Shown here one piece after another: positions 33,011 to 41,322 of a stretch of DNA of 64,000 bases. The translations under genes and the position numbers were made by a program. How positions within the stretch are numbered: position 1 is the first letter of the stretch; every line of letters starts with the position of its first letter. Location of the stretch: positions 248,001 to 312,000 of the forward strand of contig NZ_CAMZOF010000003.1 of NCBI RefSeq assembly GCF_947331435.1, given 5' to 3'. This DNA comes from Pelagibius sp. Alg239-R121. GTDB taxonomy: Bacteria > Pseudomonadota > Alphaproteobacteria > Kiloniellales > Kiloniellaceae. The notes under the pieces are model-generated. The model was given only the letters and a program-made list of their open reading frames with translations, had not been told where the DNA came from and searched no databases.

Positions 33011-34876
33011 GTGCCATCATCATCCATGACTTCGTCCGCCGAAGTTTCGCCAGCGCAGGAATCCAAAGCCGGAACGGGGGACGGCGACCATCTGGCCGCT
33101 CTGCGGGCGGAATTGGACCGACGCAATCTCCAGGGTTTTGTCGTACCCAGGGCCGATGAACATCAAGGCGAATACGTGCCGGCCCGGGCTGAGCGGTTGG
33201 CATGGCTGACTGGGTTTACCGGATCCGCGGGTAGCGCCGCCGTTCTGCCGGACAAGGCAGCCGTCTTTGTCGATGGGCGCTATACCGTTCAGGTCCGCGA
33301 GCAGATAGATCTGACCCAATTCGCACCGCGGCATGTGACTGAGGAACCGCTTTCTGATTGGTTGAAAGAGAATTTGACTGACGGACAGCGTGTTGGATTC
33401 GACCCTTGGCTCCATACAGACAGCCAGGTTCTGCAGCTTCGCAATGCCGTGTCCGCAGCGAAGGGTGAACTTGTCGCCTGCGAGACGAATCCGCTGGATA
33501 GCGCCTGGCAGGATCAGCCTGAGGCCCCGCTTGCGGAGATCGTGCCCCACCAGATCGATTTTGCCGGACAGGCCTCCTTCGAAAAGCGCGCGGAGATCGC
33601 AGCCAAGATCAAGCAAGCCGGTTGCGCTGCGGCGGTGTCGACTCTGCCTGACTCGATAGCATGGCTTTTAAACGTGCGTGGCGGAGATGTGCCATGTACG
33701 CCATTGCCGTTGTCTTTTCTCATTCTGGCTAATGATGGGGTCGCGACTTGGTTCGTCGACGACCGAAAGCTCTCCGATGGTCTGCGCGAAGAACTGGGCA
33801 ATGGGGTCGATCTGCGAGCTCCTGCCGAATTGGCCGATGCGCTTGAAGAATTGGGAAGACGCAAAAGCAGTGTGATGGCGGATCCGGCATCTGCGCCAAA
33901 GTGGGTGTTTGAGCGATTGGAAGGGGCAGGCGCAGAGATTGTTAAAGCCAGCGATCCCTGCCAATTGCCTAAAGCTCAAAAAAATACGATCGAGCTTCAG
34001 GGCACTCGGAATGCGCACTTGCGCGACGGCGCCGCCTTAACCCGGTTCTTATCCTGGCTGGATCGGGAAGCACCGGCACAAGTTGCAGCTGGTAATCTCA
34101 GCGAACTCGATCTGGTGGAAAAGCTCTTGTCATTTCGCAAGGGAGATTCCTTGTTCCGGGACTCGTCCTTTGAGACCATATCGGCCTCAGGTCCGAATGG
34201 CGCTCTCTGCCATTACCGGGTGACGCCCGACAATGACAGGCGGCTCGGGACGGGTGAGCTGTATCTGGTGGATTCCGGCGCTCAGTATCTGGACGGTACC
34301 ACCGACGTTACGCGCACCGTTGCGATCGGCGAGCCATCGGCAGAAATGCGTGACCGCTACACCCGCGTACTGAAAGGTCACATTGCCCTTGCGCTGGCGC
34401 GTTTTCCTAAAGGAACCAATGGCGGACAGCTTGACAGTCTGGCGCGGTATCCACTTTGGCAGGCCGGCCTGGACTACGACCACGGCACTGGCCATGGCGT
34501 CGGCAGTTATTTGAGTGTCCATGAGGGGCCGCAGAGGATCGCCAAGGCAGGCTCGAATGTCGCCCTCCTGCCGGGCATGATCCTGTCAAATGAGCCTGGC
34601 TATTATAAGGCCGGCGGTTATGGAATCAGGATCGAAAATCTAGTCGCCGTTATTGAGCAGGAACAGCAGCCGGGAGAGGATCGGGCTATGCTGGCGTTCG
34701 AGACGCTGACGCTGGCACCGATTGACACCACTTTGGTCGAACCCGCACTTCTGACGGATGGCGAGGTCGCCTGGCTGGATAGTTATCACGCGCGGGTGCG
34801 GGCTTCGCTGATTGAAAACCTCGAAGGCGATGACGCGACGTGGCTGGAGAAGGTCACTCAGCCGTTGGCGCGGTAA
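33011..34876 (+). CDS. Xaa-Pro aminopeptidase (M24B, aminopeptidase P)
   Basis: Dinuclear metallopeptidase removing N-terminal residues before proline, 621 residues, the long three-domain type. The N-terminal creatinase-like domain has RADEHQGEYVPARAERLAWL, a phrase typical of this subgroup. The metal ligands of the pita-bread domain are visible: DSGAQYLDGTTDVTRT (two Asp, near 420 and 431), GTGHGVGSYLSVHEGP (His near 494), NEPGYY (Glu) and RIENL (Glu). The start is GTG with CGAGG upstream; an ATG 15 bases later is an alternative. Cytoplasmic. Confidence 0.92.
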   Translation: MPSSSMTSSAEVSPAQESKAGTGDGDHLAALRAELDRRNLQGFVVPRADEHQGEYVPARAERLAWLTGFTGSAGSAAVLPDKAAVFVDGRYTVQVREQIDLTQFAPRHVTEEPLSDWLKENLTDGQRVGFDPWLHTDSQVLQLRNAVSAAKGELVACETNPLDSAWQDQPEAPLAEIVPHQIDFAGQASFEKRAEIAAKIKQAGCAAAVSTLPDSIAWLLNVRGGDVPCTPLPLSFLILANDGVATWFVDDRKLSDGLREELGNGVDLRAPAELADALEELGRRKSSVMADPASAPKWVFERLEGAGAEIVKASDPCQLPKAQKNTIELQGTRNAHLRDGAALTRFLSWLDREAPAQVAAGNLSELDLVEKLLSFRKGDSLFRDSSFETISASGPNGALCHYRVTPDNDRRLGTGELYLVDSGAQYLDGTTDVTRTVAIGEPSAEMRDRYTRVLKGHIALALARFPKGTNGGQLDSLARYPLWQAGLDYDHGTGHGVGSYLSVHEGPQRIAKAGSNVALLPGMILSNEPGYYKAGGYGIRIENLVAVIEQEQQPGEDRAMLAFETLTLAPIDTTLVEPALLTDGEVAWLDSYHARVRASLIENLEGDDATWLEKVTQPLAR

Positions 34877-34892
34877 GCCGGCACGATGACCA

Positions 34893-35438
34893 TTACTTGC
34901 CGTCGGTAAATAGCACGTTCATGTAGGCGTGCTGGATGTCGTTGATGTGCCGGACGATGTCTGCGAGATCCTGGCCGATGCGCTCGGCCATTTGAAGATT
35001 TTCATCGACAAAGAGATCCGTTGGCTCCGCCCAGCGCTGGATCATATGGATCATAGCGCGGTAGGCTGCCCGCTCGTGCGGTTGGTTGCCTCGGCCAAGC
35101 TCGTGAATCTTGTTGAGAATGAATTCGAGACTGTCCTGCGCCTTCAGCATGTTGTTTTTGCCCAGGCCAGTGAGTCGTGCTTTGTGGGTGGTTTTCGATG
35201 CCCTGCGCGATTGCATCCGCATAATCTTGGCCTGCTGCGTTGCTGCAGCTGTGATCTGCTTGCTGTTCCGTTGCGCCGAATGGAAGGGCCGGGCGACGGC
35301 TGCAGCGATCTGATCGTTGGCAGTCGTTGTTGTTCTCGGTCCCGCCGTGTCATTGGACGGCGGGGCGATACCGGTCGGGATTGCGGCGCCCTTGGGCACG
35401 AGCAAGGATCCGGTCAGGCTTGCTGCTTTCAAAGTCAT
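34893..35438 (-). CDS. ParA-associated hypothetical protein with paralogous C-terminal domain
   Basis: A 181-residue product, not recognised. Residues 1-96 are basic and Ala/Thr-rich (GSLLVPKGAAIPTG; MRMQSRRASKTTHKARLTG) and probably disordered. The last 85 residues, beginning MLKAQDSLEF, are helical and 80% identical (68 of 85) to the whole of the separate protein at 37012-37269. The gene follows the ParA stop by 13 bases, so it is very likely the ParA partner. The start is uncertain: ATG 35438 has AAGGAG only one base away, and a GTG at 35462 overlaps the ParA end. A basic N-terminus is common in ParA-stimulating partners. Confidence 0.75.
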   Translation of the reverse strand: MTLKAASLTGSLLVPKGAAIPTGIAPPSNDTAGPRTTTTANDQIAAAVARPFHSAQRNSKQITAAATQQAKIMRMQSRRASKTTHKARLTGLGKNNMLKAQDSLEFILNKIHELGRGNQPHERAAYRAMIHMIQRWAEPTDLFVDENLQMAERIGQDLADIVRHINDIQHAYMNVLFTDGK

Positions 35439-35451
35439 GCTCCTTGCCACT

Positions 35452-36147
35452 TTAATGCACACCTACGTTAAAAGACGGTTTTTCGATTACGGAAGCGGTT
35501 GACGACGGCATGATCGTCTTGCGTCGGCCCGAGATCAGTCGAGCGTCTATATATTCCCATAGTTTCGTGATTTCGCTTGCCGCGCGCGCCGCCTTGGAAA
35601 CCTCCATGACGGTGCGGCCGTCAATCATGCTGGCGGCAAAATCGGCCCGGTGATGGATGATGACCGGCGCCACTGTTCCGTGCTGCGACAGGGCGCAAGC
35701 GGCATCCGACGTCATGCGAGCACGGGGAGTGGCCGCGTTGATAACGAAGATCAACGGCTTGCCTAAATTCTCGACCAGTTCGACCGTGGCGCCGGCTGCA
35801 CGCAGATCATGCGGACTGGGGCGGGTCGGGATGATAATCAGATCGGAGACGTGGACCACATCGGCGATGGTGTCGGTGATTGCCGGTGGCGTGTCTACTA
35901 CGAGAAGTTTGATCCCCGCGTCGCGCATGCGCTCGATATCCGCGGCAAGGCGCGAGACATATGTGCTGACAAAAACGGGCGTCTCATCCTGTCGCTCATT
36001 CCACCAATCAGCCAGGCTGCCTTGAGGGTCGGTGTCGACCAGCGCTACGGGACCCGCACCCATCTTCTGAGCCTGAACGGCTATATGGCCTGCCAGGGTC
36101 GTCTTGCCCGAGCCGCCCTTTTGGGAGGATATCGCCAACACTCGCAT
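35452..36147 (-). CDS. ParA/MinD-family ATPase without adjacent ParB
   Basis: A deviant Walker A ATPase of 231 residues. KGGSGKTT at 10-17 has the signature lysine (Lys10) and the P-loop Lys15; DTDPQGSLADWW follows at 38-49 and LLVVDTPP near 83-90. It lacks the extra N-terminal DNA-binding domain of plasmid ParA. Such solitary ParAs position non-DNA cargo (chemoreceptor clusters, carboxysomes, polar factors) or act on the chromosome. No ParB-like gene is adjacent; instead the partner-like gene follows within 13 bases. AAAGGAG lies 11 bases before the ATG. This is not the usual chromosomal parAB locus. Confidence 0.88.
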   Translation of the reverse strand: MRVLAISSQKGGSGKTTLAGHIAVQAQKMGAGPVALVDTDPQGSLADWWNERQDETPVFVSTYVSRLAADIERMRDAGIKLLVVDTPPAITDTIADVVHVSDLIIIPTRPSPHDLRAAGATVELVENLGKPLIFVINAATPRARMTSDAACALSQHGTVAPVIIHHRADFAASMIDGRTVMEVSKAARAASEITKLWEYIDARLISGRRKTIMPSSTASVIEKPSFNVGVH

Positions 36148-37011
36148 TTATCTCTTGCTCCTTTGTCGTACGGCCCCTGATAGGGCCCGCCTACGCAATC
36201 GGGCCTGATGTCCTAATGGCGCCGAATCAGCTGCATGGTTTTACGAACTCGTGTCAGTCGGGAAGCCTTTTTCTAGTCGGATGGTGGCTTCGCTCCCTTA
36301 TTGACTGGCTTGCCTCAACAACCTAAGCAAGAGCTCTTAACAAGGTGTTACCGCGAGATTAATAGCAGAATCTTCAGGAGTAAAAGAAGCTAAAAATGTA
36401 GATAAATTTATATATAATCGAACTAAAGTAATAGTATAGTATGATATGAAATTCAATTATATTTCAATAGTTGATGGTTAAATTCCATTGTATGGCACAA
36501 GAAATTGAAGTGATATAGAATTATTGCGTTATGATTAGAGTTGTTTTTAGAGGTTATGTGTTTTTTGAGAGTTGTTTTGTGCCCCCAGATGCATTTTTAC
36601 ATACTATCGATCTAACAAGAACTGCATCCGTGAGGTAGAAACCGGAGTGGCGAAAGGTTCAAAATAGCGGATGATGCTGCAAGAGAATTCTTCTGGGGAT
36701 AGAAATTTCGTCAGATTCAGAGAATTGACGGGAGCGTCGATATCTCAAGGATCCGGTCTCACGCGCAATTATTCGATTGAACGCAAACGTTCTTGACGGA
36801 AACGGTCTGGAAGTATGCTGCGAGGGGAGGTCCTGGTCGGACGGAATCGCCTTGGGCGATCTATCGTATAGGTGAATCTACTCTAACCATATGAGGTGAA
36901 GTGGAATCACGTGCTTTGACAAGTCCGAGATATGGAGCCGACAAGCCTTGAACCGTTTGGTCGGAGTATTAATTGAGAGCTATTCAGGTGAACGAGAACG
37001 AACGGGCGGGA
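36148..37011. other. Long intergenic region with an AT-rich island
   Basis: 864 bases without a credible gene. From about 36330 to 36600 the sequence is conspicuously AT-rich; 36361-36540 has 45 G+C in 180 bases (25%), against well over 50% in the flanks. No tRNA, integrase or IS end is seen. The right half is closer to the normal composition but not coding. A 6-bp inverted repeat GAAGCC/GGCTTC (36262-36291) lies between the ParA start and the island. The island may be a remnant, a centromere-like site or a regulatory region. Confidence 0.6.
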
Positions 37012-37269
37012 CTATTTCGCGTCTGAAAACAGAGCTTTCATGTAGGCGTGTTGGATGTCGTTGATATGGCGGGCGATATCGGCAAGATCCTGGCCGATTC
37101 GTTCGGCCATCTGCAGATTTTCATCGATGAAGAGGTCGGTTGGTTCGGCCCAACGCTGACACATATGTATCAAGGCACGGTATGCAGCGCGCTCGTGCGG
37201 TTTGTCACCGCGACCCAGCTCCTGAACTTTCTCGAGAATAAACTCGAGGCTCTCTTCCGAATTAAGCAT
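37012..37269 (-). CDS. 85-residue helical protein, paralogue of the ParA-partner C-terminal domain
   Basis: Entirely collinear with the C-terminal domain of the protein encoded at 34893-35438: ESLEFILEKVQELGRGDKPH and RWAEPTDLFIDENLQMAERI are shared nearly unchanged, and 68 of 85 positions are identical. The start Met aligns with an internal Met of the longer protein. All-helical, acidic/basic, no membrane segment. Possibly a competitor, co-oligomer or the ancestral form of the ParA partner. An operator-like palindrome lies about 47 bases upstream of the start. Function unknown. Confidence 0.8.
   Translation of the reverse strand: MLNSEESLEFILEKVQELGRGDKPHERAAYRALIHMCQRWAEPTDLFIDENLQMAERIGQDLADIARHINDIQHAYMKALFSDAK

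Positions 37270-37504: not shown

Positions 37505-41322
<3,818 letters not shown>

Follow-up and report, generated by a model that had tools for sequence, protein, structure and literature searches.

A solitary parA locus in an alphaproteobacterial genome suggests the exchange of cargo modules behind a shared partner tip

Introduction

How partition motors gain new cargo is an open question, because ParA ATPases have partner proteins of great diversity and many ParAs count as orphans (PMC10241942). The question is raised by a locus within the window, by which we mean the whole stretch of 64,000 nucleotides that was analysed (Pelagibius sp. Alg239-R121). The initial annotation described here a ParA without a ParB neighbour, a partner with a basic N-terminus, and a free-standing paralogue of the partner's C-terminal domain, which together might form an undescribed positioning system. 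We find that an answer is readable in the sequence: a constant tip at the start of the partners, changing modules behind it, one exchange that can be placed on a tree, and an old and a new version in one genome. The putative docking tip common to plasmid-type partners, the second parA locus and the fusion event had no place in the initial annotation.

Organization of the locus

On the minus strand, the genes run in the order ligA-like gene, free-standing 85-residue gene, a gap of 864 bp, parA1b and fused partner gene, and a pepP-like gene is convergent (Table 1). The host genome comprises 8.0 Mb in 48 contigs, and its nearest named relatives are Denitrobaculum and other Kiloniellaceae. The coordinates, strands and lengths first assigned to parA, its partner and the 85-residue gene hold. 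The partner gene begins 13 nt downstream of parA1b. Its reading frame extends over 189 codons when counted from a GTG, and the ATG at 35438, with an in-frame ATG at the aligned position in the fused genes of relatives, gives a protein of 181 aa (96 + 85).

Table 1. Features of the parA1b locus (positions in the window)
Feature	Positions	Strand	Basis
parA1b, small ParF-like ParA ATPase	35452..36147	-	231 aa, Walker A KGGSGKTT
Fused partner, 181 aa: docking tip, basic linker and 85-aa domain	34893..35438	-	ORF, alignment, composition
Proposed ParA-docking tip KAASLTGSLLVPKGAAIP, partner residues 4-21	35376..35429	-	Tip in 58 ParA1 loci; profile E 2.5e-11
Basic linker, low in hydrophobics, partner residues 22-96	35151..35375	-	Composition of residues 1-96; BLASTP
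Fused copy of the 85-aa three-helix domain	34896..35150	-	Alignment, conservation, trees
Free-standing 85-aa domain gene, older form	37012..37269	-	Alignment, genome survey, trees, AF2 model
AT-richer intergenic region, 864 bp, 43.6% GC, upstream of parA1b	36148..37011	.	Sequence; repeat and Rfam searches
35-40 bp element upstream of parA1b	36314..36352	-	About 83% identity in 3 relatives with the fused gene
pepP-like Xaa-Pro aminopeptidase, usual neighbour of the domain gene	33011..34876	+	Named by eye
ligA-like DNA ligase, neighbour on the other side	37505..39625	-	Named by eye

The element at 36314-36352 is the sole stretch upstream of parA1b that blastn aligns between the relatives and the window, and it may be an operator or a promoter. 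The five repeat families listed, of the six in 36148-37011, are short and two-copy. The same region has no match to an Rfam or other RNA family, and promoter and terminator predictions at the locus do not exceed those in shuffled sequences. A repeat search at loci L067, L070 and L078 returned no three-copy family. One three-copy family, a 12-nt AT-rich repeat, lies upstream of the RHH-type parA of the host genome (L066:5985-6096) and is possibly a chance occurrence or an operator.

ParA1b, its paralogue and the fused partner

ParA1b matches CbiA/AAA_31 in Pfam. Against the NCBIfam model NF041546 (ParA family partition ATPase) it scores 164.8 bits, under the curated cut-off of 180, and four other members of the subfamily score 162.3-166.0. 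The best PDB sequence matches (E 9e-17) are ParF (4dzz) and a ParA (5u1g) that is presumably also of plasmid TP228. The protein has a deviant Walker A motif, begins at the Walker A region and carries no N-terminal HTH extension.

Residues 1-96 of the window partner contain 14 K/R and 2 D/E (+12) and few hydrophobic residues, in agreement with the basic N-terminus noted initially, and this segment is probably disordered or flexible, as judged from composition. The C-terminus is the 85-residue domain, for which we detected no RHH or other family match in Pfam or NCBIfam and whose net charge is -4 in the fused and -6 in the free copy. An identical architecture of tip, linker and 85-residue domain is present in the three other genomes of the genus, and a copy of parA1b adjoins the fused gene in all four. 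The pair thus resembles ParF-ParG of plasmid TP228 in its small ParA without an N-terminal regulatory domain and in a partner directly downstream, the N-terminal tail of which (flexible, in the window, by composition) bears a conserved K/R tip. Unlike ParG, however, the window partner has an unrelated three-helix domain in place of a C-terminal RHH. Among the repeat families listed upstream of parA1b (36148-37011), no centromere-like array was seen.

We identified a second ParA1 in the host genome (ParA1a, G000:C13:60300-60989) that is 85% identical to ParA1b. Its partner starts with MKAASLTSSLLAPKGAAAPSGIAPP, as against MTLKAASLTGSLLVPKGAAIPTGIAPP in the window partner, with 20 of 25 residues identical; BLASTP found no similarity between the two partners outside this 25-residue tip region. 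The ParA1a partner ends in an RHH-like segment, which scores below the Pfam cut-offs, and the next gene (L066:7653-8819) encodes a PAS_5-like protein; in these two respects this locus differs from that of the window, while ParA and tip are alike. The absence of a ParB neighbour therefore stands for a classical ParB, but the window partner does possess the N-terminal tip of RHH-like ParA1 partners. The host genome keeps, in ParA1a and its RHH-like partner, the likely ancestral version of the system. Given how closely the two ParAs and the two tips resemble each other, cross-talk between the DNA-type and domain-type systems would be likely in the host cell. The PAS_5-like gene, as well as second genes in other RHH-type loci, has its own AASL...RR segment near the start, which in the PAS_5-like protein is possibly a second ParA contact.

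A conserved N-terminal tip in partners of the ParA1 subfamily

The ParA1 subfamily was matched in 53 of the 385 sampled genomes of the class, and also on plasmids. The partner N-terminus has a tip with a consensus of roughly A-x-L-T-x-x-L-L-x-R-K-G-x-A-x-P, found downstream of ParA1 in all 58 loci read. Two of these were recognized by eye, one of them (L074) degenerate, and 56 by a loose pattern that was drawn from the data, a count that is not blind because the partner was picked by the tip itself among up to three overlapping ORFs (the tip ORF is not the top-scoring one in L149, L070, L078, L145 and L075). The commonest residues of the tip occur in nearly all of these 56 partners (Leu 54, Lys 55, Gly 55, Ala 55, Pro 53). 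A strict pattern matches 53 of the 56 versus 1 of 517 other genes, and this sole match is an undeduplicated fused partner that slipped through the filter. The 58 distinct ParA1 represent about half of 60 rows from related genomes (at least 50% identity, fragments included) and 65 rows from the class, five of them shared. ParA1 sharing the same first 140 matched residues were counted once, so that the four genomes of the genus contribute three domain-type ParAs.

As a fairer test than the pattern count, linkage was examined genome-wide: whole genomes, translated in six frames, were searched with a 17-row profile of the tip and with no preselection of genes. The host genome gave two strong matches (E 2.0e-11 and 2.5e-11), which are the two ParA1 partners, and the next match had an E of 0.2. 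Across 58 genomes we obtained 36 matches at E 0.01 in 30 genomes, a sensitivity flattered by the fact that some of the 17 rows came from tested genomes, which leaves the absence elsewhere unaffected. Every one of the 36 lies on the same strand downstream of ParA1, at 20 to 149 nt in 34 cases and at 355 and 1006 nt in the others, and there was no match in the 23 genomes without ParA1. Five of the 35 ParA1 genomes gave no match at E 0.01 (G005, a fragment, and G023, G030, G049 and G052). In G007 the gene adjoining ParA1 is not the one matched; the match lies in a second gene, about 1 kb downstream. On this evidence, the tip is shared among the partners and linked to ParA1.

ParA1 relatives are present in 150 plasmid records, the closest being 62% identical. 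In all five of these 150 records that were opened, the next reading frame has the tip, in one case lacking the final A-x-P, followed by a short end that we read as RHH. Since plasmid relatives carry the tip before such an end, the combination of tip and DNA-binding end is likely the old state. We found no description of the tip or the fused family in the open-licence literature, which was queried by terms other than the tip letters.

Exchange of modules behind the tip

The modules that follow the tip in the 58 partners vary: 39 partners are short, 15 are long with a transmembrane stretch, 3 carry the 85-residue domain and 1 carries DUF2336. These labels were assigned, by script and by eye, on the basis of length, tail and hydrophobic stretch, and several of the long partners are cut by the end of the locus. 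Of the short partners, 38 are RHH-like by eye and one (L156) has an unclear end. RHH families gave Pfam scores on short partners below the cut-off only, and a profile of their ends searched against the PDB matched ORF E73 (E 0.0067), which we take to be an RHH protein. Pfam placed SPOR in all three long partners scanned and DUF2336 in the single partner so labelled.

The ParA tree places the three domain-type ParAs (100/98), together with both RHH-type copies, inside a genus clade (100/97). The labels change 6 times for RHH and 2 times for TM-SPOR on this tree, versus 18.1 and 13.5 times in shuffles. As far as can be read from sequences, modules have been exchanged behind a fixed, putative docking tip, and this exchange is the novelty of the system.

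The ParA1-TM-SPOR loci (Pelagibius and others) have the same ParA subfamily and the same tip as the window, and differ in that the module is a membrane-anchored protein with SPOR and that a MipZ-like gene adjoins in some. One such gene is at L068:9075-9950 (Pfam MipZ, E 3e-89), and others were noted by eye next to the TM-SPOR-type ParA1 in L072, L073, L076, L077 and L079. These neighbours hint at a tie of the TM-SPOR-type ParA1 to division-site control. In two Pelagibius-type loci (L068 and L077), an intracellular PHA depolymerase-like gene, named by eye, is located within about 2 kb of ParA1.

The 85-residue domain

The free gene product and the partner C-terminus are identical at 68 of 85 residues from the aligned Met, without gaps (E 5e-55), which confirms the identity initially reported. 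An alignment of 18 domain sequences has 36 invariant columns among 85. The AF2 model of the free protein, computed from the more diverse of two alignments, has a pLDDT of 85.2 and a pTM of 0.68, with helices at residues 4-19, 24-40 and 50-82; it replaced a model from the less diverse alignment (pLDDT 71.4, pTM 0.39).

The domain was initially not recognized, and this remains so. No Pfam or NCBIfam family scored above cut-off, the PDB sequence search gave nothing below E 0.6, and Foldseek with the model gave nothing at E 0.001. The best VIA-align match has a Z of 5.5 over 49 residues, a middling value for a helical protein, and the PHROG search returned weak matches alone. Plasmid and phage collections contained no match at E 0.01. 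Overall, the 85-residue domain has no recognizable relative of known function.

Distribution of the domain and origin of the fusion

We detected the domain in 18 of 58 related genomes, including the host, and in 10 of the 385 class genomes, of which 9 are believable (the match in G071 is partial, at 28 residues). Within the family it occurs in 12 of 23 genomes, namely the 4 of the window's genus and the 8 of Pelagibius type, without exception. The domain gene lies beside pepP in all 8 Pelagibius-type loci, in 5 of 6 loci of family f7 and in the 3 other loci of the genus. A ligA-like gene is near it in all 6 f7 loci, there on the side opposite pepP, and in 2 of the 3 genus loci with long flanks (L024 and L025); L023 has no ligA nearby. 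In the Pelagibius-type and f7 loci the domain gene stands alone with no ParA1 adjoining, ParA1 being elsewhere in those genomes, and in the other genera read it adjoins metabolic genes. Five of the nine class genomes with a believable domain match gave no ParA1 match at E 1e-45.

The fused form is present in all four genomes of the window's genus and in no other loci read. The free copy is retained in one of these four, the window's own. The DNA tree groups the free copy of the window with the fused copies (95/91) and places it outside them (98/92); in the protein tree, support for grouping it with the fused copies is 83/73 only. The two copies differ with a dN of 0.10 and a saturated dS of 2.45, and the free copy is by this comparison under constraint. 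Searches with tblastn upstream of parA in the three relatives of the genus, covering the ligA-parA gap in two and the equivalent stretch in L023, found no remnant of the domain.

From these sequences, the free stand-alone protein is the older form of the domain and predates the fusion. The best fit is a tandem duplication on the stem branch of the genus, after which the other three genomes lost the free copy. In our best reading, a duplicated partition cassette landed at the locus and its tip became fused to the resident 85-residue protein.

A second, distant ParA

A solitary ParA (ParA2), about 31-36% identical and with a IAQQKGGAGKTT-like Walker A, was noted in loci L098-L113 and in the host genome (G000:C4:308185-308790). 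In 13 of the 14 loci with ParA2, among 16 fetched, it has a sua5/yrdC-like neighbour (named by eye), and no partner gene was noticed next to it in these loci. In genus g59, with the domain in three genomes, the free domain gene adjoins ParA2 in both loci examined (L095 and L097), and in L095 a sua5-like gene follows the two. In L094 the domain gene sits between acyl-CoA dehydrogenase-like and sua5-like genes without ParA2, and in L096 it is beside an acyl-CoA dehydrogenase-like gene (all by eye). Inspection by eye of nine ParA2-side gaps showed no domain-like ORF. Because ParA2 commonly adjoins a sua5-like gene, and L094 has the domain by such a gene without ParA2, a shared neighbourhood may explain the adjacency in g59, which argues only weakly for the free domain working with ParA2.

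Proposed mechanism and alternatives

Given the analyses presented above, we consider it probable that ParA1b and the fused partner work as a positioning system of two components that descends from a plasmid-type (ParF/ParG-like) partition cassette, into which the 85-residue module was swapped as a new link to cargo. ParA1b-ATP dimers would coat the nucleoid, and the tip, held on the long basic linker, would dock on a ParA1b dimer and trigger release. The ancestral RHH-like end, which would have tied DNA to ParA, has been replaced by the 85-residue domain formerly separate at the locus; the cargo would then be the assembly formed by the 85-residue protein, or its binding partner. Where the free copy is kept, it could co-assemble with the fused copy. 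We infer docking, ATPase stimulation, ratchet-like positioning and the identity of the cargo; binding of cargo by the 85-residue domain is suggested by its position, because the domain resembles nothing of known function.

Known ParA partners trigger release through an N-terminal Lys or Arg. By analogy, release may be triggered here by the near-invariant Lys-Gly of the tip, with the long basic linker serving as a tether. Partners of ParA/MinD ATPases are described as engaging the ATPase via a charged, disordered N-terminus while the remainder binds cargo (PMC10241942), and ParG tails as having arginine-finger-like motifs (PMC7308502). The closest likeness with a non-DNA cargo adaptor, by description, is McdA-McdB carboxysome positioning, in which binding of McdA and its release from DNA are reported to depend on the N-terminal 20 residues of McdB and chiefly on Lys7 (PMC12204374, a preprint).

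The tip alone is no proof that the fused protein is mobile, and the protein could instead regulate the other, DNA-type ParA of the host genome. As a regulatory decoy, it would bind either ParA1 without cargo and titrate or reset the ParA1a/RHH system, with the domain as a stabilizer or sensor. The near identity of the two ParA1 paralogues and of their tips, which makes cross-talk likely, speaks for such a role. However, the fusion has its own ParA copy adjoining in all four genomes of the genus, and the invariance of 36 of 85 columns in 18 sequences is beyond the need of a passive stabilizer, and we regard a decoy as unlikely.

It is still less probable, and indeed improbable, that the free 85-residue protein serves the ParA1b partner as its dedicated adaptor, co-oligomer or inhibitor in a three-component system, as the initial annotation proposed in treating the free paralogue as a component. 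In the window the free gene has the fused one as a neighbour, the free copy is constrained, and near-identical domains plausibly co-assemble. Yet three of the four genomes of the genus keep parA1b and the fused gene without the free copy, the free gene has no ParA1 adjoining in other genera, more than half of the class genomes with a believable domain match have no ParA1 match at the threshold used, and the free protein is the older form. The free gene was thus absent from, or unlinked to a parA of this kind in, the relatives whose loci were read, which does not apply to the fused gene. What persists of the initial proposal is a ParA with a charged-N-terminus partner bearing an undescribed domain, for which positioning is the best reading; the free paralogue as a component is not supported.

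We give very little credence to a cargo that is still DNA, bound by the 85-residue domain or the linker of a cassette that remains a partition system: descent from plasmid-type partition modules and the basic N-terminal 96 residues would suit it, but the domain is acidic with no DNA-binding family match, just two-copy short repeats lie upstream of parA1b, and the domain stands alone beside metabolic genes in other genera.

Implications

Returning to the two-component positioning system, the findings suggest that a partner kept its motor-docking tip and swapped its DNA-binding end, so that the motor now moves a different cargo. Whether the near-invariant tip of the ParA1 subfamily is a plug for varied cargo modules, and the window locus an undescribed positioning system for an assembly of the 85-residue protein that arose via cassette duplication in one genus, is in our estimation an evenly balanced proposition. 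The tip provides a simple rule for finding partners of the ParA1 subfamily. We predict that grafting it onto another protein would make that protein a ParA cargo. The 85-residue protein, otherwise the product of an unannotated small gene, gains a testable link to intracellular positioning.
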